32,556 nt of DNA. Origin: Synergistaceae bacterium (GTDB lineage Bacteria; Synergistota; Synergistia; Synergistales; Synergistaceae). Both the position numbers and the translations under genes were made by a program. The DNA lies in contig JAIRKI010000080.1 of the NCBI GenBank assembly GCA_031260185.1, forward strand, positions 1 through 32,556, read 5' to 3'. How positions within the stretch are numbered: the stretch's first letter is position 1; each line of letters begins with the position of its first letter. The notes beneath the pieces are model-generated. The model was not told the DNA's origin and did not search any database. It was given only the letters and a program-made list of their open reading frames with translations. Positions 10,011-20,187 of the stretch are shown piece by piece.

Positions 10011-10080
10011 ACGGGGAATTTTTCTTCGGTAAAAAGTACGAGAATGGGTATATCATTTGCGGAGGCCCCGGCAATCACTA

Positions 10081-10134
10081 TTGAACCCAATACAGGAAGC
10101 CGCCGTGAATGGAGCCGTTCACGCCCGCAGGGTC
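10081..10134 (-). pseudogene. scrap of a decarboxylase beta-subunit gene (mmdB/oadB-like)
   Basis: Read on the minus strand, these 54 bases give DPAGVNGSIHGGFLYWVQ and then a stop codon. Residues 68-85 of the intact beta subunit at 19036-20187 are DAVGENGSIHGGFLYWVQ, 15 of 18 identical. At DNA level 10081-10134 matches 19932-19985 at about 48 of 54 positions. No further homology is visible on either side, and the match ends three bases before a long inverted-repeat element. It is therefore a remnant of a second copy of the gene, or a piece moved by recombination. Confidence 0.75.
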
Positions 10135-10136
10135 AT

Positions 10137-10413
10137 TATTCAACCGTGTTTTCCAGCTCTAAAATTCCCCAAGACACCTGTTCTATCAGCAGGTGTTGTA
10201 TGAATATATCTTATTTTCCGCTGACTGTCTACACTCGTGAGAAAAATTTCGAAATCAGACCCGCTTTTTTCACGATAATTCGTTTATAACAGACTAATCT
10301 CTCAGCCCTTGCGTTTCAACGCGTCACGCAGTTTAACCGCGAATTTTTCAGGACACCTGCTGATAGAACAGGTGTCCTGGGGTAGTTTCAGAGCGGGAAA
10401 ACGCGGCTGAATA
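10137..10413. repeat. 277 bp element with ~60 bp imperfect inverted arms
   Basis: The left arm 10137-10196 is matched by the reverse complement of 10353-10413 with about ten mismatches or gaps. The inner 24 bases of the arms are perfectly complementary to each other. Each arm also folds on itself (ACACCTG, nine-base loop, CAGGTGT). The ~156-base centre has no open gene. The right arm ends 31 bases before the start codon of the transport operon, so the element forms most of its leader. It could be a MITE/IS remnant or a regulatory leader structure; a MITE-like origin is favoured because gene debris abuts it. Confidence 0.65.
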
Positions 10414-10444
10414 GTTACAAAATATATGTGGAGGTGTGGTATCT

Positions 10445-11425
10445 ATGAAGAAATATTTTTTCCTGTTTTGCGCGGTAGCGGTATGTGTTGTGCTATTCGC
10501 GTCGGCTTCTTCAGCGCGGGACGATAATCGTGTCGTCATATACTCTTCGGTCGAAGATTTCCGGGAGGAGTATTTTTACGGAAAACTGAACGAAAAGTTT
10601 CCAGATTATGAAATAGTGATCGAGTATCTTCCAACTGGCAACAGCGCGGCTAAACTAAAGGCCGAAGGCCTCGAAACCGAATGCGATATAGTTTTGGCGC
10701 TCGATGTCAGTTACGCCGCGTCATTGAGCGAATTTCTCGCCGATCTGTCCGCCTATGATTACAGTGAATATCTCGACGAACTCGTGCCAACCGTCAAAAA
10801 ATATATGATATGGGAACGTTGGAGCGGATGCATCGTCACTAATCCCAAAATACTCTCGGAAAAAGGTCTCGAAGTTCCGAAATCATACGAGGACCTGTTA
10901 AAACCGGAGTACAGGGAACTGATAGTCATGCCGAATCCGAAATCATCCGGAACGGGCTATTTCTTTCTCTTCTGCTTGTATAAGGCGTGGGGCGCCGACA
11001 AAACGTTCGAGTATTTCAACAAACTGGCGCCGAACGTTCTTCAGTTTACCGCGTCCGGCTCGGGCCCCATAAACGCGCTCATGAGAGGGGAAGCGGCGAT
11101 AGGTTTCGGAATGACCTTTCAGGCCGTGACTCAACGCAATTCCGGCGCGCCTCTTGAAATTACATATTTCAAAGAAGGCGCGCCCTACAACAGTAGCGCG
11201 TTCGCTATCATCGATGGAAAACAAAACAGGCAGCCGGTTATGGACGTTTTTAACTTCCTGAGGGATGTCCTGGTATATGACGACAAAAAACTGTTCTCAC
11301 CGGAAAAAATATTCAAAAATCAGGAGATAGATATCCCGAACTATCCGCGGGTTCCATACGCGGATATGACAGGCATAGATTCCGAAGAGGAGAAGGCGGC
11401 GCTTCTTGCCGGATGGACTTATTGA
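10445..11425 (+). CDS. ABC importer substrate-binding protein (family 1, PhnS/AfuA-like)
   Basis: 326-residue periplasmic binding protein. A signal peptide (residues 1 to ~25, KKYFFLFCAVAVCVVLFASAS) ends at an ASSA-type cleavage site. Mature-domain features are VVIYSSVEDFRE, then ECDIVLALDVSYA, then LIVMPNPKSSGTGYFF, then RGEAAIGFGMTFQA, as in the iron(III)/2-aminoethylphosphonate/spermidine-type solute-binding family. The exact ligand cannot be read; the neighbouring cytidylyltransferase favours a phosphonate or phospho-alcohol. The ATG at 10445 has GGAGG ten bases upstream; a GTG nine bases earlier is less likely. It is the first gene of the seven-gene operon and overlaps the ATPase gene by 13 bases. 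Confidence 0.88.
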   Translation: MKKYFFLFCAVAVCVVLFASASSARDDNRVVIYSSVEDFREEYFYGKLNEKFPDYEIVIEYLPTGNSAAKLKAEGLETECDIVLALDVSYAASLSEFLADLSAYDYSEYLDELVPTVKKYMIWERWSGCIVTNPKILSEKGLEVPKSYEDLLKPEYRELIVMPNPKSSGTGYFFLFCLYKAWGADKTFEYFNKLAPNVLQFTASGSGPINALMRGEAAIGFGMTFQAVTQRNSGAPLEITYFKEGAPYNSSAFAIIDGKQNRQPVMDVFNFLRDVLVYDDKKLFSPEKIFKNQEIDIPNYPRVPYADMTGIDSEEEKAALLAGWTY

Positions 11426-12192
11426 ACTTGCCGGTCAAACTTCAGGCCCGCGGCCTGACGATGCGTTACGGCGCGAACGAGATACTCGGCGGGGTCAGCT
11501 TTGACGCGAAAAGCGGCGAATTTTTATCGATACTCGGCCCGTCGGGTTGCGGCAAGACGACTGTTTTGGGCATACTCGTCGGATTGTTGAAACCCGAGAG
11601 CGGTTCGGTGTTCAAGGATGGAGCCGACATCACCGGCGTTCACCCATCGAAACGCGGGATGGGCATTGTTTTCCAAAATTACGCGCTGTTTCAAAATATG
11701 ACGGTTTTGGGAAACGTGGAGTACGCTCTTCGGATCAAAAAAGAGACGCGCGGACAATCGCGCGAGATAGCCGCGAGCATCATAGAGCGAGTCGGGCTGA
11801 AAGAGCACATGCACAAAAAACCTCACCGTCTGAGCGGAGGCCAGCAACAGCGCGTCGCCGTCGCGCGAACGCTCGCTATGGGGCCGGACGTAGTGCTGCT
11901 AGATGAACCGATGAGCGCCCTCGACGCAGCGACAAGATTGCAGATGAGAGAGGAACTCATTGATATAAAGGACACATTCGGAACAACCATGATATACGTC
12001 ACTCACGATCAGGAGGAAGCGTTCGCCCTGTCCGACCGCGTCATTGTCATGGAGACCGGCAAGATATCCCAGTTCGACACGCCCGAGAACATCATATGCA
12101 ATCCGGCGAACGAATATGTGCGGGATTTCGTGGTGCGAAACATCGAACTCAAACTAAAATCATTGACGAAGTATATAAATAATAAAATATGA
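11413..12192 (+). CDS. ABC importer ATPase (PhnT/PotA-like)
   Basis: 259-residue nucleotide-binding subunit. Walker A is GPSGCGKTT (42-50), the Q-loop is in IVFQNYALFQNMTV, the signature LSGGQQQR is at 140-147, and Walker B VVLLDEP is at 160-166, followed by the D-loop SALD and the H-loop Thr-His in YVTHDQEEAF. The protein lacks the extended C-terminal TOBE domain of longer CUT1/PotA ATPases and ends soon after the AFALSDRVIVME region. It overlaps the binding-protein gene by 13 bases and the permease start by four (ATGA), so the three subunits are translationally coupled. It energises the fused permease that follows. Confidence 0.93.
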   Translation: MDLLNLPVKLQARGLTMRYGANEILGGVSFDAKSGEFLSILGPSGCGKTTVLGILVGLLKPESGSVFKDGADITGVHPSKRGMGIVFQNYALFQNMTVLGNVEYALRIKKETRGQSREIAASIIERVGLKEHMHKKPHRLSGGQQQRVAVARTLAMGPDVVLLDEPMSALDAATRLQMREELIDIKDTFGTTMIYVTHDQEEAFALSDRVIVMETGKISQFDTPENIICNPANEYVRDFVVRNIELKLKSLTKYINNKI

Positions 12193-13784
12193 CAGCTACC
12201 GTAAATAAAATTCAAACGTCGATCAAATCCCTGCTCACCGTCTTCCTTGTCGTGGCGGTGATATTGCCGTTGGCGAAAATGCTCGCCCTCGTCACATACT
12301 CTGACCTGGGCGCCGTGTTGACCTCGCCGAGACTCTGGCGAGCCGTAAAAAACTCCGTATCGGTATCGGCCGCGGCAAGCTTCATAGCAATTTCAACCGC
12401 AATGCTGGCGGCGTTTTGCGTATCTCGCTGCGATATACGTAACAGGCGCATCTTTAATGTTATGGCCGCGTTGCCCATGCTGATCCCTTCCGTCTCGCAC
12501 GGGATGGGCCTCATCATAATGTTCGGCAGAAATGGCGTGCTGACCAATATTTTAGGCATCGAAGGGTCGTTATACGGATTTTGGGGTATTGCGGCCGGTT
12601 CCGTATTTTATTCATTTCCCCTGGCTTATCTGATGCTGGAAAATATATTGAGATATGAAGATACATCGCCCTACGAAGCAGCGGAGGTACTGGGAATATC
12701 GTGCGCCAGACAGTTCATGTCGATAACCCTGCCTTATATGCGCAAGCCTCTTGCCTCCGTCATATTCGCCGTATTCACCATGATCGTCACGGATTACGGC
12801 GTCCCGTTGACTATCGGAGGTCGGTACGTCACTCTTCCGGTCATGATGTACGAGGAAGTCGTGGGACTGCTCAAATTCGGCAGCGGAAGCGTAATCGGGG
12901 CGCTGCTGCTCATACCGGCGGCGGTATCGTTCATATTCGATTCGTTCACGCACGATATCGGCAATCAGAGTTATCTGGCGCACACCAGGCGTCTTAAGGT
13001 GTCGCGCGTTATAAACACGATGGCCCGTATCTACTGCGGCATTATCTGCGTAACAGCTCTGCTGCCTGTTTTGTCGTTTTTGTTCCTCGCCTTTGTCCGT
13101 AAATATCCGTGGGATATGTCGTTGACTTTGTACAATGTCACCAACAGTTTTCGCAGAGGGGCGGGCACGTACATGAAAAACTCACTGATAATCGCGTTGT
13201 GTGTGGCTACTTCGGGCGTTATTATGTCCTATCTCGCCGCTTATCTCACCGCGCGTTCCGAAGGCTCGTCGTCCCGCGCGCTGCACTTCGCCTCGATAAC
13301 CTCGATAGCGGTTCCGGGCATAGTGCTCGGCATTGCTTACGTGCTGCTTTTCAGGACAACTTTTTTGTACGGTACCATGGGAATACTCATATTGGTAAAT
13401 TTGACGCACTTTTTCGCTTCCCCGTATCTCATGGCATATAATTCCCTGAACAAAGTCAACAGGAATCTTGAAGCGGTGGGAATGACGCTCGGGGTCGGAC
13501 GATGGAGGATAATACGAGACGTCATAGTTCCCTTGACTGCGTCCACCATAGTCGAAATGTGGAGTTATTTTTTCATAAATTCGATGATGACGATCTCGGC
13601 TGTCGCTTTCCTTTCCAACGTCAGAACCAGGCCCCTCAGCATGATGATTCCGTCGTTCGAGGCAAACATGCAGTTTGAATCCGCGGCGTTCGTGTCTCTT
13701 TTGATTCTTGCCGTAAATGTAACAATGAAAGGATTGATGGGCATCATAAACGGAATATTGCGCCGGAGACGGGAGTTATGCTGA
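12189..13784 (+). CDS. ABC importer permease, two fused transmembrane domains
   Basis: 531-residue integral membrane protein with about twelve helices in two homologous halves, each with a BPD_transp_1 coupling motif. The first half has an EAAEVLGISCARQF-like EAA loop (about residue 160); the second has LEAVGMTLGVGRWR (about 430). This matches the FbpB/AfuB/PhnU-V type of double permease, in which one polypeptide supplies both membrane halves. It overlaps the ATPase stop (ATGA) and the cytidylyltransferase start by seven bases. The substrate is small and probably polyanionic; phosphonate or phosphocholine is inferred from context only. Confidence 0.9.
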   Translation: MTATVNKIQTSIKSLLTVFLVVAVILPLAKMLALVTYSDLGAVLTSPRLWRAVKNSVSVSAAASFIAISTAMLAAFCVSRCDIRNRRIFNVMAALPMLIPSVSHGMGLIIMFGRNGVLTNILGIEGSLYGFWGIAAGSVFYSFPLAYLMLENILRYEDTSPYEAAEVLGISCARQFMSITLPYMRKPLASVIFAVFTMIVTDYGVPLTIGGRYVTLPVMMYEEVVGLLKFGSGSVIGALLLIPAAVSFIFDSFTHDIGNQSYLAHTRRLKVSRVINTMARIYCGIICVTALLPVLSFLFLAFVRKYPWDMSLTLYNVTNSFRRGAGTYMKNSLIIALCVATSGVIMSYLAAYLTARSEGSSSRALHFASITSIAVPGIVLGIAYVLLFRTTFLYGTMGILILVNLTHFFASPYLMAYNSLNKVNRNLEAVGMTLGVGRWRIIRDVIVPLTASTIVEMWSYFFINSMMTISAVAFLSNVRTRPLSMMIPSFEANMQFESAAFVSLLILAVNVTMKGLMGIINGILRRRRELC

Positions 13785-14665
13785 CCCGCGATCAATTTGA
13801 CGCGCTGACCGCCATCGAGGCGGAAAATAACGATAATATTGAAGGTCACGCGCCGCGGCAGCCAAAATTATCATCTACCGGGACGTTCGATGGCGCCTTA
13901 AAGGAACTAAACGAGCTTGGCCTCGCCGAAAAAAACGCGATCACGCCGAAAGGCCTGGACGCTCTGGAACCGTACCGCGCGCGCCGTGCGATAATACTCG
14001 CGGCCGGTTTAGGGGAACGTATGCTACCGCTCTCAGAACACATACCCAAGCCCCTCGTTCGGGTAAAGGGCGTTCGGTTGATCGATACAGTTCTTGACGC
14101 GCTCCGGGACGCTGGCATCACTGATATAACGATCGTTCGCGGACATCTCGCGGAGCAATTCGACCAACTGCTCGAAAAATACCCGTATGTGCGTTTTGTC
14201 CAAAATCCGGCATACAGCGAAACCAACAGTATCTCGTCGATGATGTGCGTCAGACACATGCTGGAGAACGCGTATGTATCCGAGGCCGATCTTCTTTTTT
14301 ACAACAAGCGATTGATAACGAAGTATCAGTACTGCAGCAACTACCTTGGAATCTCGGCGGACGCGAGCGACGACTGGTGTTTCGAGAGCGGAGGCGGGCT
14401 CATAACGAAGATGACGCTTGGAGGACGAAACTGCCATATTGTCGTTGGGCTGTCTTATTGGACCGCGCGCGATGGCAGGATGATATCGGAGCACATAAAA
14501 CAAGTATACGAAATGCCGGGAGGCAAGGATCGTTTCTGGGATACCGTTCCGTTGGAATATTTCAGAGAATATTACAACGTGACGATTCGCGAATGTAAAC
14601 ACGAAGACGTTATCGAGATCGACACATACGATGACCTCAAAAAACTCGACAGCAGTTATCCCTGA
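13778..14665 (+). CDS. LicC/PntC-like cytidylyltransferase with N-terminal helix domain
   Basis: 295-residue nucleotidyltransferase. Residues ~1-66 are a small extension resembling an abbreviated winged helix (LTRDQFDALTAIE, LKELNELGLAEKNAITPKGLDAL). The nucleotidyltransferase domain begins at 70 with AIILAAGLGERMLPLSEHIP and KPLV. A metal-binding acidic pair lies in SEADLLFY (Glu169, Asp171), and the C-terminal half resembles LicC (GLSYWTARDG, FWDTVPLEYF, VIEIDTYDDLKKL). LicC makes CDP-choline from phosphocholine; its relative PntC makes CMP-2-aminoethylphosphonate. The sequence does not decide between them, but coupling to a PhnSTUV-like importer favours imported substrate. It overlaps the permease by seven bases. 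Confidence 0.88.
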   Translation: MLTRDQFDALTAIEAENNDNIEGHAPRQPKLSSTGTFDGALKELNELGLAEKNAITPKGLDALEPYRARRAIILAAGLGERMLPLSEHIPKPLVRVKGVRLIDTVLDALRDAGITDITIVRGHLAEQFDQLLEKYPYVRFVQNPAYSETNSISSMMCVRHMLENAYVSEADLLFYNKRLITKYQYCSNYLGISADASDDWCFESGGGLITKMTLGGRNCHIVVGLSYWTARDGRMISEHIKQVYEMPGGKDRFWDTVPLEYFREYYNVTIRECKHEDVIEIDTYDDLKKLDSSYP

Positions 14666-14735: not shown

Positions 14736-14990
14736 ATGAAGAGGATTGACAGAATCTTTGCTGTAGCATACTTCGCGTTCTGGACGAGCCGGCTGCTTGC
14801 CGCAAACGCCTACGCCTATATCGACCCGACGACCACGGCGATGATCACTCAGATTGTAGCGGGCGTATTTATTTCGCTCGGGTTCGCGTTCGGTATATTC
14901 CGGCGCAGGATAATCATGTTCTTTAAAAACCTGTACGTCAAGATGCTGCAAAAGAAACTGCGGAAAGGAACCGGCAAAAATGGCAAATAA
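14736..14990 (+). CDS. small AYIDP-motif membrane protein
   Basis: 84-residue protein of unknown function. The N-terminal hydrophobic segment (about 6-24) is followed by AYAYIDPTTTAMITQ and a second helix (about 40-56, IVAGVFISLGFAFGIF). A strongly basic tail then follows (RRRII, FFKNLYVKMLQKKLRKG). The first segment could be a cleavable signal peptide ending at AYA. Short proteins with a YIDP motif of this kind recur in bacterial envelope gene clusters, but no activity is known to me. The ATG at 14736 has AAGGAG eight bases upstream; a TTG at 14730 is too close to that site. It sits between the cytidylyltransferase and the YidC fusion, so it is probably an accessory membrane part of that system. 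Confidence 0.75.
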   Translation: MKRIDRIFAVAYFAFWTSRLLAANAYAYIDPTTTAMITQIVAGVFISLGFAFGIFRRRIIMFFKNLYVKMLQKKLRKGTGKNGK

Positions 14991-15014: not shown

Positions 15015-17093
15015 TTGAGCATAATAAACTTTCTTCTCGGCGCCCCGCTCGGTTTTATCCTGCGGTTTTGCTATGACATAACCCACGATCTCGGTTGGGC
15101 GATTGTCATTTTCACATTCGCGACAAAGGTGATATTGTTCCCGATTTCACTTATCTCACAAAAGAATTCCATCATAATGGTCAAGCTGCAGCCTCGGCTT
15201 GACGACATAAAGGCGCGATATGAGGACGAATTTGAGGTAATGTTGAAAGAGCGGAAAGCTTTATGCAAGCGTGAGAAGTACAGCGCGTTCAAGGCGATTC
15301 TGCCGCTCCTTATTCAGATTCCGATTATACTCGGCGTAATCGGCGTTATTTACTCGCCGCTGAAATATATCCTGAATATTGACAATGCCGATATAAATCA
15401 GCTTACGGCAATTACGCGGGAATACGTCGGAGAGAGCCTTGAGACCGGCGCGGACTTGCGGGTTATCCACGCGGTTCATGAAAATCCGCGACTATTTCCG
15501 GCTAGCGCGGCCGTTCAGGCGATCGCGGACTTCAAGACCGGTTTTCTCGGTTTTGATTTGTCGGCGATACCGTCTCTTGCGGGCGCATATATTCTCATAC
15601 CGCTGTTGTCGGCGTTATCGGCTTTTTTGATGTGCCTCGCGCAGAACTGGTTTAATCCGCTGACAAAAGAATCGGGTTTCCTGAACAAGTGGGGGATCAC
15701 GATATTTCTCGTGATGTTTTCAGGGTACTTCGCGGCGGTTTGCCCCGCCGGCGTCGGGTTGTACTGGATCGCGGGCAATTTGCTCGGCATACTTGTTTCG
15801 TGGGTTTGCTATCTGATTTACAATCCCAACAAGTACATTGACTATGAGAACCACGCCGTCAAGACCAAATTGTCCGCAAAGGAAAAGCGTGAACTCAAAG
15901 ACAAAAAACGCCGTGAAAAAGAATGTCAGAAAGTCGACGAGAAACGGTTCTTCGGCGTAAAGAAAGAGATCGTGTTCTATGCCGAAAGCAGAGGATTTTA
16001 TAAGTATTTCAAGGGCTTTATTCAGCACATTCTCGACCGCTCGGATATTGTCGTTCATTACGTTACGAGTGATATTGACGACCCGCTGTTAAGCGATACC
16101 CGCGAGCGGTTTGAGAGCTATTTCTGCTCGGTGAACGGCTTGATAACGCTGTTTATGAAAATGGACTGCGATATTATGGTGCTTACGATGCCGGACCTGG
16201 AGCGGTACCATATCAAGCGTTCGCTTGTAAAAAACGACATCGAGTATATCTACGCCGACCACGGCATCGGCAGTTTCCATCTTATGCTCCGCAAAGGCGC
16301 GCTTGACTATTACGACACGATTTTCTGCTACAGCAAGAACCACGACGCTGAAATCCGCGCAACCGAGCGGTTATACGGGACGCAAGAGAAAAAACTCGTA
16401 AATGTCGGTTTCGGTTTGCTCGACGAGAACATCGCTAACTATGAACGGCTTGACCTGCCGAAAAATGAAAAACCGCGGGTGCTGATCGCTCCGTCCTGGC
16501 AGAAAGACAACTTGCTCGAATATTGTTTTGACGAACTGGCGGAGGGATTGCGCCTGACGGACTACAAGATTATTATCCGTCCGCATCCTGAGTTCGTGAA
16601 GCGTTTCCCCGGCAAGATGAAGCTGATATTCAATAAATGCAAGGACTTTATGGGTGATGACTTCGAGATTCAGACTGACTTTTCATCGAACTCGACGGTA
16701 TATTCGTCAGACCTGGTGATCACCGACTGGTCGAGCATAGCGCAGGAATTCTCGTTTGCGACAAAGAAGCCCGTGTTATTTATCAACACTCCGATGAAAG
16801 TGATGAATCCGGAATGGAAACGAATCGACATCGTTCCGCAGGAGATTTCCATCCGCGACATAATCGGGATTTCGGTTGACGCCGACAAACTCGGCGATAT
16901 TGACGAAACCGTCCGTGAGCTCATAACCAACGCCGGCAAGTACCGCGCCGCGATAGAAAACTTCATCGCCGGCAATATGTACAACGTCGGACACGCCGCC
17001 GAAGTTGGCGGTGAATATTTAATCGCCCAGGTAAAGGCAAGGAGAGAAGCGAAAAATGAGGAAGATAATGAATTGCCCGCCGCCCGGAACTAA
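15015..17093 (+). CDS. YidC-like insertase fused to CDP-glycerol glycerophosphotransferase-like domain
   Basis: 692-residue two-domain protein. Residues ~5-275 form a YidC/Oxa1-type membrane domain: LGWAIVIFTFATKVILFPIS (26-45) with Lys38 where the groove arginine normally sits, the cytoplasmic loop LQPRLDDIKARYE, the ILPLLIQIPIILG helix, and GVGLYWIAGNLLG. A charged linker (283-312, Lys/Arg/Glu-rich) leads to a TagF-like domain (~313-675) with ADHGIG (414-419), IAPSWQ (491-496), RPHPE (522-526) and VITDWSS (568-574). Those are the histidine-bearing and nucleotide-binding motifs of CDP-polyol phosphotransferases. A TTG start is chosen because GGAAGG lies seven bases upstream. It overlaps the sulfatase gene by 38 bases. 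I infer it moves a phospho-head group from a CDP donor at the membrane. Confidence 0.9.
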   Translation: MSIINFLLGAPLGFILRFCYDITHDLGWAIVIFTFATKVILFPISLISQKNSIIMVKLQPRLDDIKARYEDEFEVMLKERKALCKREKYSAFKAILPLLIQIPIILGVIGVIYSPLKYILNIDNADINQLTAITREYVGESLETGADLRVIHAVHENPRLFPASAAVQAIADFKTGFLGFDLSAIPSLAGAYILIPLLSALSAFLMCLAQNWFNPLTKESGFLNKWGITIFLVMFSGYFAAVCPAGVGLYWIAGNLLGILVSWVCYLIYNPNKYIDYENHAVKTKLSAKEKRELKDKKRREKECQKVDEKRFFGVKKEIVFYAESRGFYKYFKGFIQHILDRSDIVVHYVTSDIDDPLLSDTRERFESYFCSVNGLITLFMKMDCDIMVLTMPDLERYHIKRSLVKNDIEYIYADHGIGSFHLMLRKGALDYYDTIFCYSKNHDAEIRATERLYGTQEKKLVNVGFGLLDENIANYERLDLPKNEKPRVLIAPSWQKDNLLEYCFDELAEGLRLTDYKIIIRPHPEFVKRFPGKMKLIFNKCKDFMGDDFEIQTDFSSNSTVYSSDLVITDWSSIAQEFSFATKKPVLFINTPMKVMNPEWKRIDIVPQEISIRDIIGISVDADKLGDIDETVRELITNAGKYRAAIENFIAGNMYNVGHAAEVGGEYLIAQVKARREAKNEEDNELPAARN

Positions 17094-18966
17094 ACTCGCG
17101 GCCATACTGTCCGCGGCGTTTGCCGTGAGTTTTATGGTATTGTTTTTCACGCCATTTGATTTATACCTGCATAACCCGACGGGTTTCATTGTAGGATGGA
17201 AGTTTTTGCTACCGTCGCTCATCGCGCTCATATTACCCGCGTTTGTCGGACTGTCAACGGTCCTGCTGCTTCTGTATCACAGAAAGACCGTTGCCGGCGC
17301 GGCGTTGTTCGCGCTCTGCGCCGCGGTTATCGCGTATTTGAGATTCGTTCGGCATCATTTTCTTTACGTGGGTATTCCGGCGTTATTGCTGCTCGCCGCT
17401 TTGCTTGCGGTTTGGGTTCTGTCGATAAAATTCATGAAAGAAAAGGCTGTCGACGCCGCCTTGCTCCTGATATGGGGTGTCGTCACCGCGGCTTACGTCC
17501 AGTCGCTGTTCCTGAACGGGGAAATGGTTCAGCTTACGGGCGACAGAGCGGGATACGGCGATGTCACTGCCGGGCACGTCGCGAATTTGCTTCTTTGGGT
17601 TGCGATAATGTCCGCGCCGCTGTGCGTATGGCTGTTCCTTGGCCGCAAAAAGAAAGCGTTTAATTTTGATAAACCTCTTATTTTCACCCTTCTGCTCGTT
17701 TGCGGAATGCAAGCCGCGGGACTCATTTCAGCTGCCGTTTCCGCGGATTTGCCGGTTGGCTACGAGGATAATCCGCGGTATCTATCTTACGGGAACACTC
17801 TGAGTTTCAATAAAGACAAAAATATTGCCGTGTTTGTACTCGACCGTCTCGACGTGTCATATATGACCGATGCTCTCGATAATTATCCGGAGCTTTATGA
17901 AATGCTTGACGGATTTACTTTTTACAAAAACAACGTATCGGAGTTCGGAGGAACTTTCCCGTCAGTGCCTACGATGCTCACGCAGTATTATTACGATGAC
18001 AGCGGATTGACGTTCAGCGAATACTGGAGAACAGCGTGGTCGCGTCATAATGTCATAGACACGCTTCGCGAAAATGGATATACGACAAATTTATTGATTG
18101 ACAAATTATCGACATACGGAAGTTATGACGAAATTGACAGGCGGACGGACAATATCGAGCTCGCCAAAAAGTTGGAAATCAACCCCAAAGGTATGATTAA
18201 CGCAATGGGAAAACTTGCGTTTGGGCGATTGGCGCCGTATTTTATGAAAAATTTGTTCCTCGCAACAGTTAACCCGTCATTTGGCAACTGGCTATATGAC
18301 ATCGGCGATATCGATGGTCACGCTTCGGTCGGTTCGGCTTCGGACAGAAAATTCTACGAGTATATTAAAAGTGAGACGATGTCCGCAGACAGCCAAAAGC
18401 CTGTTTCCAATTTTATTCATTTAAATTGCGCTCACGTAGATCGGGATAAAACAATCAGAAGCATGGGGTATCACTGGGATTCTGAGAAACAAACCATTGT
18501 GGGCTTTGGTAACTATGTTGAAACAACAGCGGCTTGTTTTTATATTTTGGACGAGTATTTCTCTAAAATGAAACAAGCGGGAGTGTATGACAATACTACA
18601 ATAATCCTGCTTGGAGACCACGGCAGGGATCTTGACACAGAGTCCGAAAATCCCGCCGTTGCCACCGGCCTATTGATAAAACCGCAAAAAGCGAGCGGAG
18701 TTTTGAAAATCGATACAGCAAGCGAACTGTCAAACCGCTATCTTCCGGCAAGCATACTCGAAGCGGCGGGGATACCGCATGATAATCTTGGGCTTTCCTA
18801 CAATGACGTAATTATGAGTGAAGAATACCCAGTGAGAAGATATTATGTTTATAATTCTTGGTGGGATGCGCGCGGCAGATCGGAAAGTATTCGTTTGTCG
18901 GGCATGTATGAAATCAGCGGAGACGCGAATAATTTCTCAAACTGGAAGTTCGTATCCAACGAATAA
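17056..18966 (+). CDS. membrane-anchored sulfatase / LTA-synthase-like phosphotransferase
   Basis: 636-residue protein: about six or seven membrane helices in residues 14-228, then an alkaline-phosphatase-superfamily catalytic domain (~255-600). Visible metal and nucleophile motifs are VFVLDRLD (Asp263), GGTFPSVPTMLT (catalytic Thr probably 300 or 306), HLNCAH (455-460) and LLGDHGRD (519-525). Family members such as LtaS and phosphoethanolamine transferases move phospho-head groups on the outer face of the membrane. Here it would act after the CDP-dependent steps encoded upstream, or trim the product. ATG 17056 has GGAGAG upstream inside the previous gene. It is the last gene of the operon, followed by a hairpin. 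Confidence 0.88.
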   Translation: MRKIMNCPPPGTKLAAILSAAFAVSFMVLFFTPFDLYLHNPTGFIVGWKFLLPSLIALILPAFVGLSTVLLLLYHRKTVAGAALFALCAAVIAYLRFVRHHFLYVGIPALLLLAALLAVWVLSIKFMKEKAVDAALLLIWGVVTAAYVQSLFLNGEMVQLTGDRAGYGDVTAGHVANLLLWVAIMSAPLCVWLFLGRKKKAFNFDKPLIFTLLLVCGMQAAGLISAAVSADLPVGYEDNPRYLSYGNTLSFNKDKNIAVFVLDRLDVSYMTDALDNYPELYEMLDGFTFYKNNVSEFGGTFPSVPTMLTQYYYDDSGLTFSEYWRTAWSRHNVIDTLRENGYTTNLLIDKLSTYGSYDEIDRRTDNIELAKKLEINPKGMINAMGKLAFGRLAPYFMKNLFLATVNPSFGNWLYDIGDIDGHASVGSASDRKFYEYIKSETMSADSQKPVSNFIHLNCAHVDRDKTIRSMGYHWDSEKQTIVGFGNYVETTAACFYILDEYFSKMKQAGVYDNTTIILLGDHGRDLDTESENPAVATGLLIKPQKASGVLKIDTASELSNRYLPASILEAAGIPHDNLGLSYNDVIMSEEYPVRRYYVYNSWWDARGRSESIRLSGMYEISGDANNFSNWKFVSNE

Positions 18967-19014: not shown

Positions 19015-19035
19015 AACATGTTCCGGAAAAAAATT

Positions 19036-20187
19036 TTACTTCGTGAGCAGCGTCAGCATCGCTCCAGCGGCTACGGCCGTGCCGATTACGCCCGCCACGT
19101 TCGGGCCCATCGCGTGCATCAGGAGGAAACTGCCCGGGTTCTCTTTTTGCACGACCTTCTGCACCACGCGCGCCGCCATGGGCACCGCCGAGACACCGGC
19201 CGCGCCTATCGCCGGGTTTATCCTGCCGTTCGAGAGGACTTTGAACAGCTGTCCCAGCGTGAGGCCGCCGGCCGTGCTGAAACCAAAGGCTATAAGCCCC
19301 AGGATGATTATCTTCACGGTCGTGACCTGCAGGAAAGTATCTCCCTCCATGGTGCCGCCGACGGAAATGCCGAGGAATATGGTCGCCATGTTCAGAATCT
19401 CGTTCTGCGAGGCCTGGCTGAGGCGTTCGGTGCATCCCGACTCGCGCAGCAGGTTGCCGAACATCAGAAGCCCGACAAGGGGCGCACAGGCGGGAAGAAC
19501 AAGCCCGCAGATTATCGTGGATATTATGGGGAACAATATCCTTTCGAGTTTGGAAACCGGGCGAAGCTGGTCCATCTTTATCGCGCGGTCGGCCTTGGTG
19601 GTCAGCAATTTGATGACCGGAGGCTGAATGAGCGGCACCAGCGACATGTAGCTGTACGCCGCCACAGCCACCGCTCCCAGGATGTTCGGGGCGAGCTTGC
19701 TGCAAAGATATATGGCCGTCGGCCCGTCAGCGCCGCCGATTATGCCTATTCCGGCCGCTTCCTGAATCGTGAATCCCCACGCCATGGCCCCCGAGACCGC
19801 TATGAATACGCCGAGCTGCGCGGAAGCGCCGAGGAGAAAGGTTATCGGGTTCGCCAGGAGCGGGCCGAAATCGGTGAGCGCTCCAATCCCCATGAATATG
19901 ATTATCGGGTACAGCTCGTGCTCGATGCCCTTTTGAACCCAGTACAGGAATCCGCCGTGAATGGAGCCGTTCTCGCCCACCGCGTCAAGTATGCCCGAGA
20001 ACGGAAGATTCGCCAGAAGGCATCCGAAAGCTATCGGAAGCAACAGGAGCGGTTCGAAACCTTTTCTGATAGCCAGATAAAGAAGTACAAAAGCGACTAT
20101 CAGCATAGCGATATTTTTCGCGGAAAGCCCGATTAACCCCGAGTTCTCGTAGATTCCCCACAAAGCTGTTTTGTATAATTCAAACAT
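19036..20187 (-). CDS. mmdB: Na+-pumping decarboxylase beta subunit
   Basis: 383-residue integral membrane carboxybiotin decarboxylase, the subunit that releases CO2 from biotin and pumps Na+ outward. Hallmarks are GIGALTDFGPLLANP, then GGADGPTAIYL with the essential aspartate, then GGTMEGDTFL, and the C-terminal GPNVAGVIGTAVAAG; about ten hydrophobic helices are present. OadB, GcdB and MmdB are alike; MmdB is chosen because the operon also encodes a propionyl/methylmalonyl-type carboxyltransferase and methylmalonyl-CoA epimerase. It is the last gene of mce-mmdA-D-C-B. A damaged 54-base copy of codons 68-85 lies at 10081-10134. Confidence 0.93.
   Translation of the reverse strand: MFELYKTALWGIYENSGLIGLSAKNIAMLIVAFVLLYLAIRKGFEPLLLLPIAFGCLLANLPFSGILDAVGENGSIHGGFLYWVQKGIEHELYPIIIFMGIGALTDFGPLLANPITFLLGASAQLGVFIAVSGAMAWGFTIQEAAGIGIIGGADGPTAIYLCSKLAPNILGAVAVAAYSYMSLVPLIQPPVIKLLTTKADRAIKMDQLRPVSKLERILFPIISTIICGLVLPACAPLVGLLMFGNLLRESGCTERLSQASQNEILNMATIFLGISVGGTMEGDTFLQVTTVKIIILGLIAFGFSTAGGLTLGQLFKVLSNGRINPAIGAAGVSAVPMAARVVQKVVQKENPGSFLLMHAMGPNVAGVIGTAVAAGAMLTLLTK

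Follow-up and report, generated by a model that had tools for sequence, protein, structure and literature searches.

A YidC-TagF gene fusion and the four-module, envelope-decorating system to which it likely belongs

Here we describe a genuine gene fusion that joins a YidC/Oxa1 domain to a TagF-like domain in a Synergistaceae bacterium, on a contig whose whole length of 32,556 nucleotides is referred to below as the window. Comparison with relatives, in which the same domain sits on the enzyme's outside partner, suggests that the YidC domain functions as a component of a machine that decorates the cell surface. The system likely comprises four modules: a small membrane protein that we call YIDP, the YidC-like domain, the TagF-like domain, and a phosphotransferase of the EptA/LtaS fold. 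It is probable that the system transfers headgroups to the envelope, and we lean, by a small degree, towards the fusion being the membrane-embedded cytoplasmic transferase subunit of this machine. We infer the complex from gene fusions and gene neighbourhoods; the chemistry of the headgroup and the direction in which it is transferred are also inferred.

The fusion protein, its recurrence and its origin

The fusion gene lies on the forward strand at 15015..17093, begins with a TTG start codon, and stays open from end to end to encode 692 amino acids. A YidC/Oxa1 domain (residues 27-265) is followed by a charged linker (about 276-318) and a TagF-like domain of GT-B fold (about 319-676). Both domains had been proposed in a first-pass annotation made from the letters alone, and both are confirmed by Pfam matches that exceed their gathering scores: 60KD_IMP (PF02096) at residues 27-265 (E=1.5e-29, 103.5 bits against 35) and Glyphos_transf (PF04464) at residues 437-590 (E=1.9e-9, 37.4 bits against 22.1). 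The protein also reaches the NCBIfam cut-off for the YidC C-terminal domain. In TagF the residues of the HG, RPHP and TD(Y/W)S motifs are catalytic. The annotation had picked out ADHGIG, RPHPE and TDWSS, which are found where it placed them as H416-G, R522-P-H524-P and D571-W-S, and in an alignment of 20 fusion sequences H416, R522, P523, H524, P525, D571, W572 and S573 are invariant. It had also proposed predicting the structure of the full protein. The AlphaFold2 model, built from 20 homologues, has a mean pLDDT of 85 and a pTM of 0.60, the latter leaving the mutual placement of the two domains uncertain; its best PDB match in Foldseek is TagF (3l7k), and the YidC of B. halodurans (3wo7) matches it with a TM-score of 0.68-0.69, normalised by target length. 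The TagF-like domain is a divergent member of the TagF family.

A scan of GTDB genomes for full-length homologues returned 19 loci, mainly from Oscillospiraceae/Ruminococcus and other metagenome-assembled genomes (MAGs) of Bacillota, and a sample of 393 Clostridia-type genomes contained the fusion in six. The set that we examined comprised 26 loci in 25 genomes, and so 25 full-length copies besides that of the window. The annotation had named an assembly error at the junction as the finding that would overturn its reading, and MAGs are indeed among the sources of the copies found; however, the identical junction recurs in independent assemblies at all of these loci, the 19 homologues of the scan sharing 39-59% identity with that of the window where they align, and the flanks of the window match genus-mates at up to about 90%. 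An assembly error or chimeric gene is therefore ruled out for practical purposes, and we regard it as vanishingly improbable. The one genome with two copies (G051) carries the first (L036) and the second (L051) in different surroundings, one with sulfatase-fold genes and the other near a PEP mutase, so these paralogues may serve different headgroups.

The fusion can also be ruled out as the housekeeping insertase. Two proteins of the window genome match PF02096, the fusion and a 310-aa protein on a different contig (contig 95, G000:C95; 178.6 bits), and the latter sits between rnpA/yidD and jag in an rnpA-yidD-yidC-jag context, which makes it the separate housekeeping yidC that the annotation had recommended looking for. 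A stand-alone yidC was likewise found in 12 of 13 other fusion-bearing genomes, the exception being a 1.5-Mb MAG, and in 8/8 of a second set. A match on a Subdoligranulum plasmid was set aside as an ordinary yidC-jag.

The window copy was likely acquired horizontally, as indicated by its lower GC content, its nesting among Bacillota copies, and the absence of the fusion from its closer relatives. Between about 10 and 19 kb of the window the GC content is approximately 0.48-0.52, versus approximately 0.58-0.62 over much of the flanks. For pieces of the right flank, matches to genus-mates reach about 88-91%, and for the glutamine synthetase region 90%, so the contig itself is sound. The full fusion was absent from genus-mates and other genomes of the window's class (183 searched); synteny on the left side ends at 19034, and no clean empty site was found in the genus-mates. 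One split homologue within the class (L053) is a stand-alone TagF-like protein with no YidC or YIDP on its stretch. In the tree, the window's YidC domain nests within the Bacillota fusions (sets of 5 and 6 rows, supported at 99/97 and 100/98), far from the housekeeping YidC of its own genome.

Two repeats were observed around the low-GC stretch. On its left side, at 10161-10388, lies a MITE-like element whose inverted terminal repeats are 36 bp long and 92% complementary; pieces related to it occur on more than 10 other contigs of the genome. A 58-bp direct repeat (88%) flanks the stretch at 10078-10135 and 19930-19987; its right copy falls within the oxaloacetate decarboxylase beta gene, and the left one may therefore be what remains of an oadB that was duplicated or broken.

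Four modules that exchange partners

Immediately upstream of the fusion, at 14736..14990 on the forward strand, is the gene for YIDP, an 84-aa membrane protein with one clear hydrophobic segment after YIDPTTTAMITQ and no match to a Pfam family. Its homologues either adjoin the fusion or are themselves fused to TagF-like or sulfatase-fold proteins, and in 18/26 YidC-TagF loci a YIDP gene is adjoining or fused to the sulfatase gene. On the other side, at 17056..18966 on the forward strand, is the gene for a 636-aa membrane protein with about seven hydrophobic segments and an alkaline-phosphatase-superfamily (sulfatase/LtaS-like) domain, for which the Pfam Sulfatase match has an E-value of 7.9e-13 and the LtaS match is weak. 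By comparison with the YidC-sulfatase alignment, the Asp in VLDR, the Thr in GGTFPSVP, and GDHG are probably its metal ligands and nucleophile. A sulfatase-fold gene was found in 12 of the 26 YidC-TagF stretches, several of which are incomplete.

These parts are joined in four ways. YidC is fused to TagF at the 26 loci described above and to the sulfatase-fold phosphotransferase in the 19 sequences that we aligned; YIDP is fused to TagF in every stand-alone TagF-like protein examined, where it forms the N-terminus (12/12), and to the phosphotransferase at L034 and L110. In architecture A, that of the window, a YIDP protein, a YidC-TagF fusion, and a sulfatase-fold protein are encoded separately; architecture B consists of YIDP-TagF and YidC-sulfatase, while a variant, A', pairs YIDP-sulfatase with YidC-TagF (L034, L110). 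Where YidC is carried by TagF, YIDP either stands alone or is attached to the sulfatase-fold protein; where the sulfatase-fold protein carries YidC, it is TagF that bears YIDP. Such swapping of YIDP and YidC between partners indicates strongly, if indirectly, that the four parts act jointly.

The stand-alone TagF-like proteins of the YIDP type, 407-443 aa long, have at their N-terminus the YIDP motif of the small protein upstream of the window fusion, and often lie beside a YidC-sulfatase. Among the 393 Clostridia-type genomes, 11 have such a TagF-like protein, 12 have a YidC-sulfatase, and 11 have both (Fisher p=1.6e-20, a value that ignores kinship). The genes were within 240 bp of each other in 12/16 pairs and within 6 kb in two more; of the remaining two TagF-like genes, one (G269:C8) has a YidC-sulfatase about 2 kb off, and the other is at a contig end. 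The predicted structure of a YidC-sulfatase (pLDDT 82, pTM 0.74) finds its best matches in EptA, PbgA, LtaP and LtaS. In the tree, each fusion type has a clade of YidC domains to itself, supported at 100/99 for YidC-TagF and at 100/100 for YidC-sulfatase. The two clades do not come out as sisters, but the AU test does not reject a common clade (p=0.40) and is compatible with recruitment of YidC in either one or two events.

A sheep-rumen Clostridiales genome (G052, the source of L038 and of loci L042-L049) gave 13 matches to PF02096, mostly in open reading frames of about 730-945 aa in which a YidC domain is followed by transmembrane helices and then by a sulfatase/alkaline-phosphatase-superfamily domain. 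It holds around ten YidC-sulfatase paralogues, one YidC-TagF, and one housekeeping yidC, and its paralogues are possibly an expanded or switchable repertoire for surface decoration.

Headgroup chemistry and the role of the YidC domain

The window also encodes a LicC/MobA-like nucleotidyltransferase (13778..14665, forward strand) that matches NTP_transf_3 above its cut-off, reaches no curated equivalog cut-off in NCBIfam, and probably activates the headgroup with CTP. Its N-terminal extension of about 65 residues (13778-13975) matches the winged-helix families HTH_24 and MarR_2 in a homologue (L024:7732-9510, reverse strand), so the enzyme may also regulate transcription. Further upstream on the same strand are the genes for a solute-binding protein (10436..11425), an ABC ATPase (11413..12192), and a two-domain ABC permease (12189..13784), whose best NCBIfam matches are PhnS2 (of the 2-aminoethylphosphonate, or AEP, type), PhnT2 and PhnU2; since all three fall below the family cut-offs, the substrate is not fixed. 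Choline kinase and PEP mutase/Ppd, present in many relatives, are absent from the window, which has this PhnSTU2-like importer instead. The lack of a kinase would make sense if the importer brought in a headgroup that already carries a phosphate, or is a phosphonate, and that passes directly to activation with CTP.

In the loci of relatives, LicC-like domains are fused to choline kinase or to an aminotransferase (PntC-like), and there are PEP mutase-cytidylyltransferase fusions, a TPP enzyme of the phosphonopyruvate-decarboxylase type, and BCCT transporters. At least one LicC, PntC or PEP-mutase homologue occurs in 19/26 YidC-TagF stretches, with PEP mutase in 9. At one locus (L103:7961-9976, reverse strand) a triple fusion of LicC-like, cytidylyltransferase-like and PEP mutase domains adjoins YIDP-TagF and YidC-sulfatase genes. 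Since the enzyme sets (AEP, choline, other) differ among loci, a single chemistry is unlikely. The activation of AEP with CMP by PntC is established, and its use on surface glycans or lipids is expected (PMC6697681).

In the model that we propose, a phosphonate or phospho-headgroup would be imported or made, and a LicC/PntC-like enzyme would activate it as a CDP or CMP conjugate. The C-terminus of YidC is cytoplasmic, which would put the TagF domain on the side of the CDP substrates and leave the EptA/LtaS-type domain on the outer side. The TagF-like domain would then move the CDP-activated group, of phosphonate or phosphocholine type, onto a membrane-linked acceptor, the YidC-like domain would be a structural subunit by which the TagF domain is held to YIDP and to the EptA/LtaS-fold transferase, and that transferase, with its active site outside, would complete the transfer to the envelope. 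By analogy, and speculatively, the YidC groove might let the lipid-linked headgroup cross the membrane.

The first-pass annotation had suggested a membrane platform or channel for a lipid-linked product, of which the platform role is in keeping with all of the data, and had taken a lysine in place of the groove arginine, along with an unusual segment of about 70 residues (125-185), as signs of altered function. Lys38 does occupy the groove-arginine column of the alignment, and the segment does exist, but neither carries that meaning: lysine is common in this column, being found in 9 of 35 stand-alone YidCs (arginine in the other 26), and the segment is optional, missing from 7/20 homologues. 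The groove lysine as a novelty and the segment as a functional part are both ruled out. The charge itself is kept in YidC-TagF, with lysine in 17 sequences and arginine in 4 (K/R 21/21), and lost in YidC-sulfatase (K/R 0/19), so a function common to both types cannot depend on it. This pattern argues against a classical insertase role shared by both types and is in line with a structural or lipid-related role.

YidC classically handles small membrane proteins, and the YidC domain might instead be a dedicated insertase that serves YIDP or the sulfatase-fold partner and is coupled to the transferase to aid assembly. The TagF fusions retain the YidC helices, the groove charge, and the cytoplasmic hairpin, and the YIDP gene adjoins the fusion; yet almost all of the genomes checked have a general yidC as well, and in architecture B the YidC-sulfatase has lost the groove charge while YIDP is fused to TagF. 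We consider this improbable, and hold the same opinion of the YidC domain as a mere membrane anchor for an ordinary teichoic acid polymerase or primase. TagF enzymes are membrane-associated, and the fold and motifs of the fusion are those of TagF, but the five-helix insertase fold is conserved at its motif positions without drift, the sulfatase-fold partner uses the same YidC fold, each fusion type is a single, strongly supported clade, and the neighbours are headgroup enzymes.

That the YidC fold is a transmembrane hub that links both transferases and, as a dedicated scramblase, would pass the lipid-linked headgroup between leaflets is a tentative idea that rests on analogy. Purified E. coli YidC, Oxa1 and Get1, members of the Oxa1 superfamily of insertases, scramble glycerophospholipids in vitro (PMC10491306), and a path for lipid headgroups through the YidC domain is to that extent plausible. 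The more particular proposal, in which the lipid-linked product made by TagF would be carried by the YidC domain across the membrane to the outside transferase, is speculative and rather unlikely. It would suit a YidC fused to an enzyme on either membrane face and an outside partner that folds like lipid-dependent headgroup transferases; however, scrambling in vitro is general to insertases and need not reflect a dedicated role, and the loss of groove charge in 19/19 YidC-sulfatase fusions means that the two fusion types may differ.

Comparison with known systems

We found no publication on such a fusion or system in the open-access literature, although it may be mentioned in subscription journals or database annotations. 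The known roles of YidC/Oxa1 proteins are those of insertase and chaperone, and a YidC fold tied to enzymes on both membrane faces, in two fusion types and one apparent pathway, points to a non-insertase role. E. coli YidC scrambles lipids in vitro without a clear physiological reason, and the fusions are natural proteins in which scrambling might be the actual job. The system also supplies candidates for the transferase that would act, in many bacteria, once CMP-AEP or CDP-choline has been formed, a step left open for CMP-AEP in PMC6697681.

The fusion shares the GT-B fold and the HG, RPHP and TD(Y/W)SS motifs of the TagF/TarF CDP-glycerol (ribitol) polymer transferases (PF04464; 3l7k), but it carries YidC, is so divergent that phmmer finds no match to TagF in the PDB, and has neighbours that make CDP/CMP-choline or phosphonate conjugates rather than CDP-glycerol. 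With the YidC/Oxa1 insertases (PF02096; 3wo7) it shares the fold, the groove charge and the cytoplasmic hairpin; unlike them, it has an attached enzyme, is additional to the housekeeping yidC, and belongs to its own clade. The fusion loci have in common with the Lic and Pnt pathways (PMC6697681) the LicC/PntC cytidylyltransferase, choline kinase, and PEP mutase, together with a phosphonopyruvate-decarboxylase-like enzyme and a BCCT transporter. That paper names LicD-like transferases and does not mention YidC, glycerophosphotransferase or sulfatase, whereas here the pair of YidC-TagF and an EptA/LtaS-fold protein would fill the transfer role. Finally, the sulfatase-type partner has the same fold as the membrane phosphotransferases EptA, LtaS and PbgA, and differs from them in architecture B, which places a YidC domain ahead of the transmembrane part.
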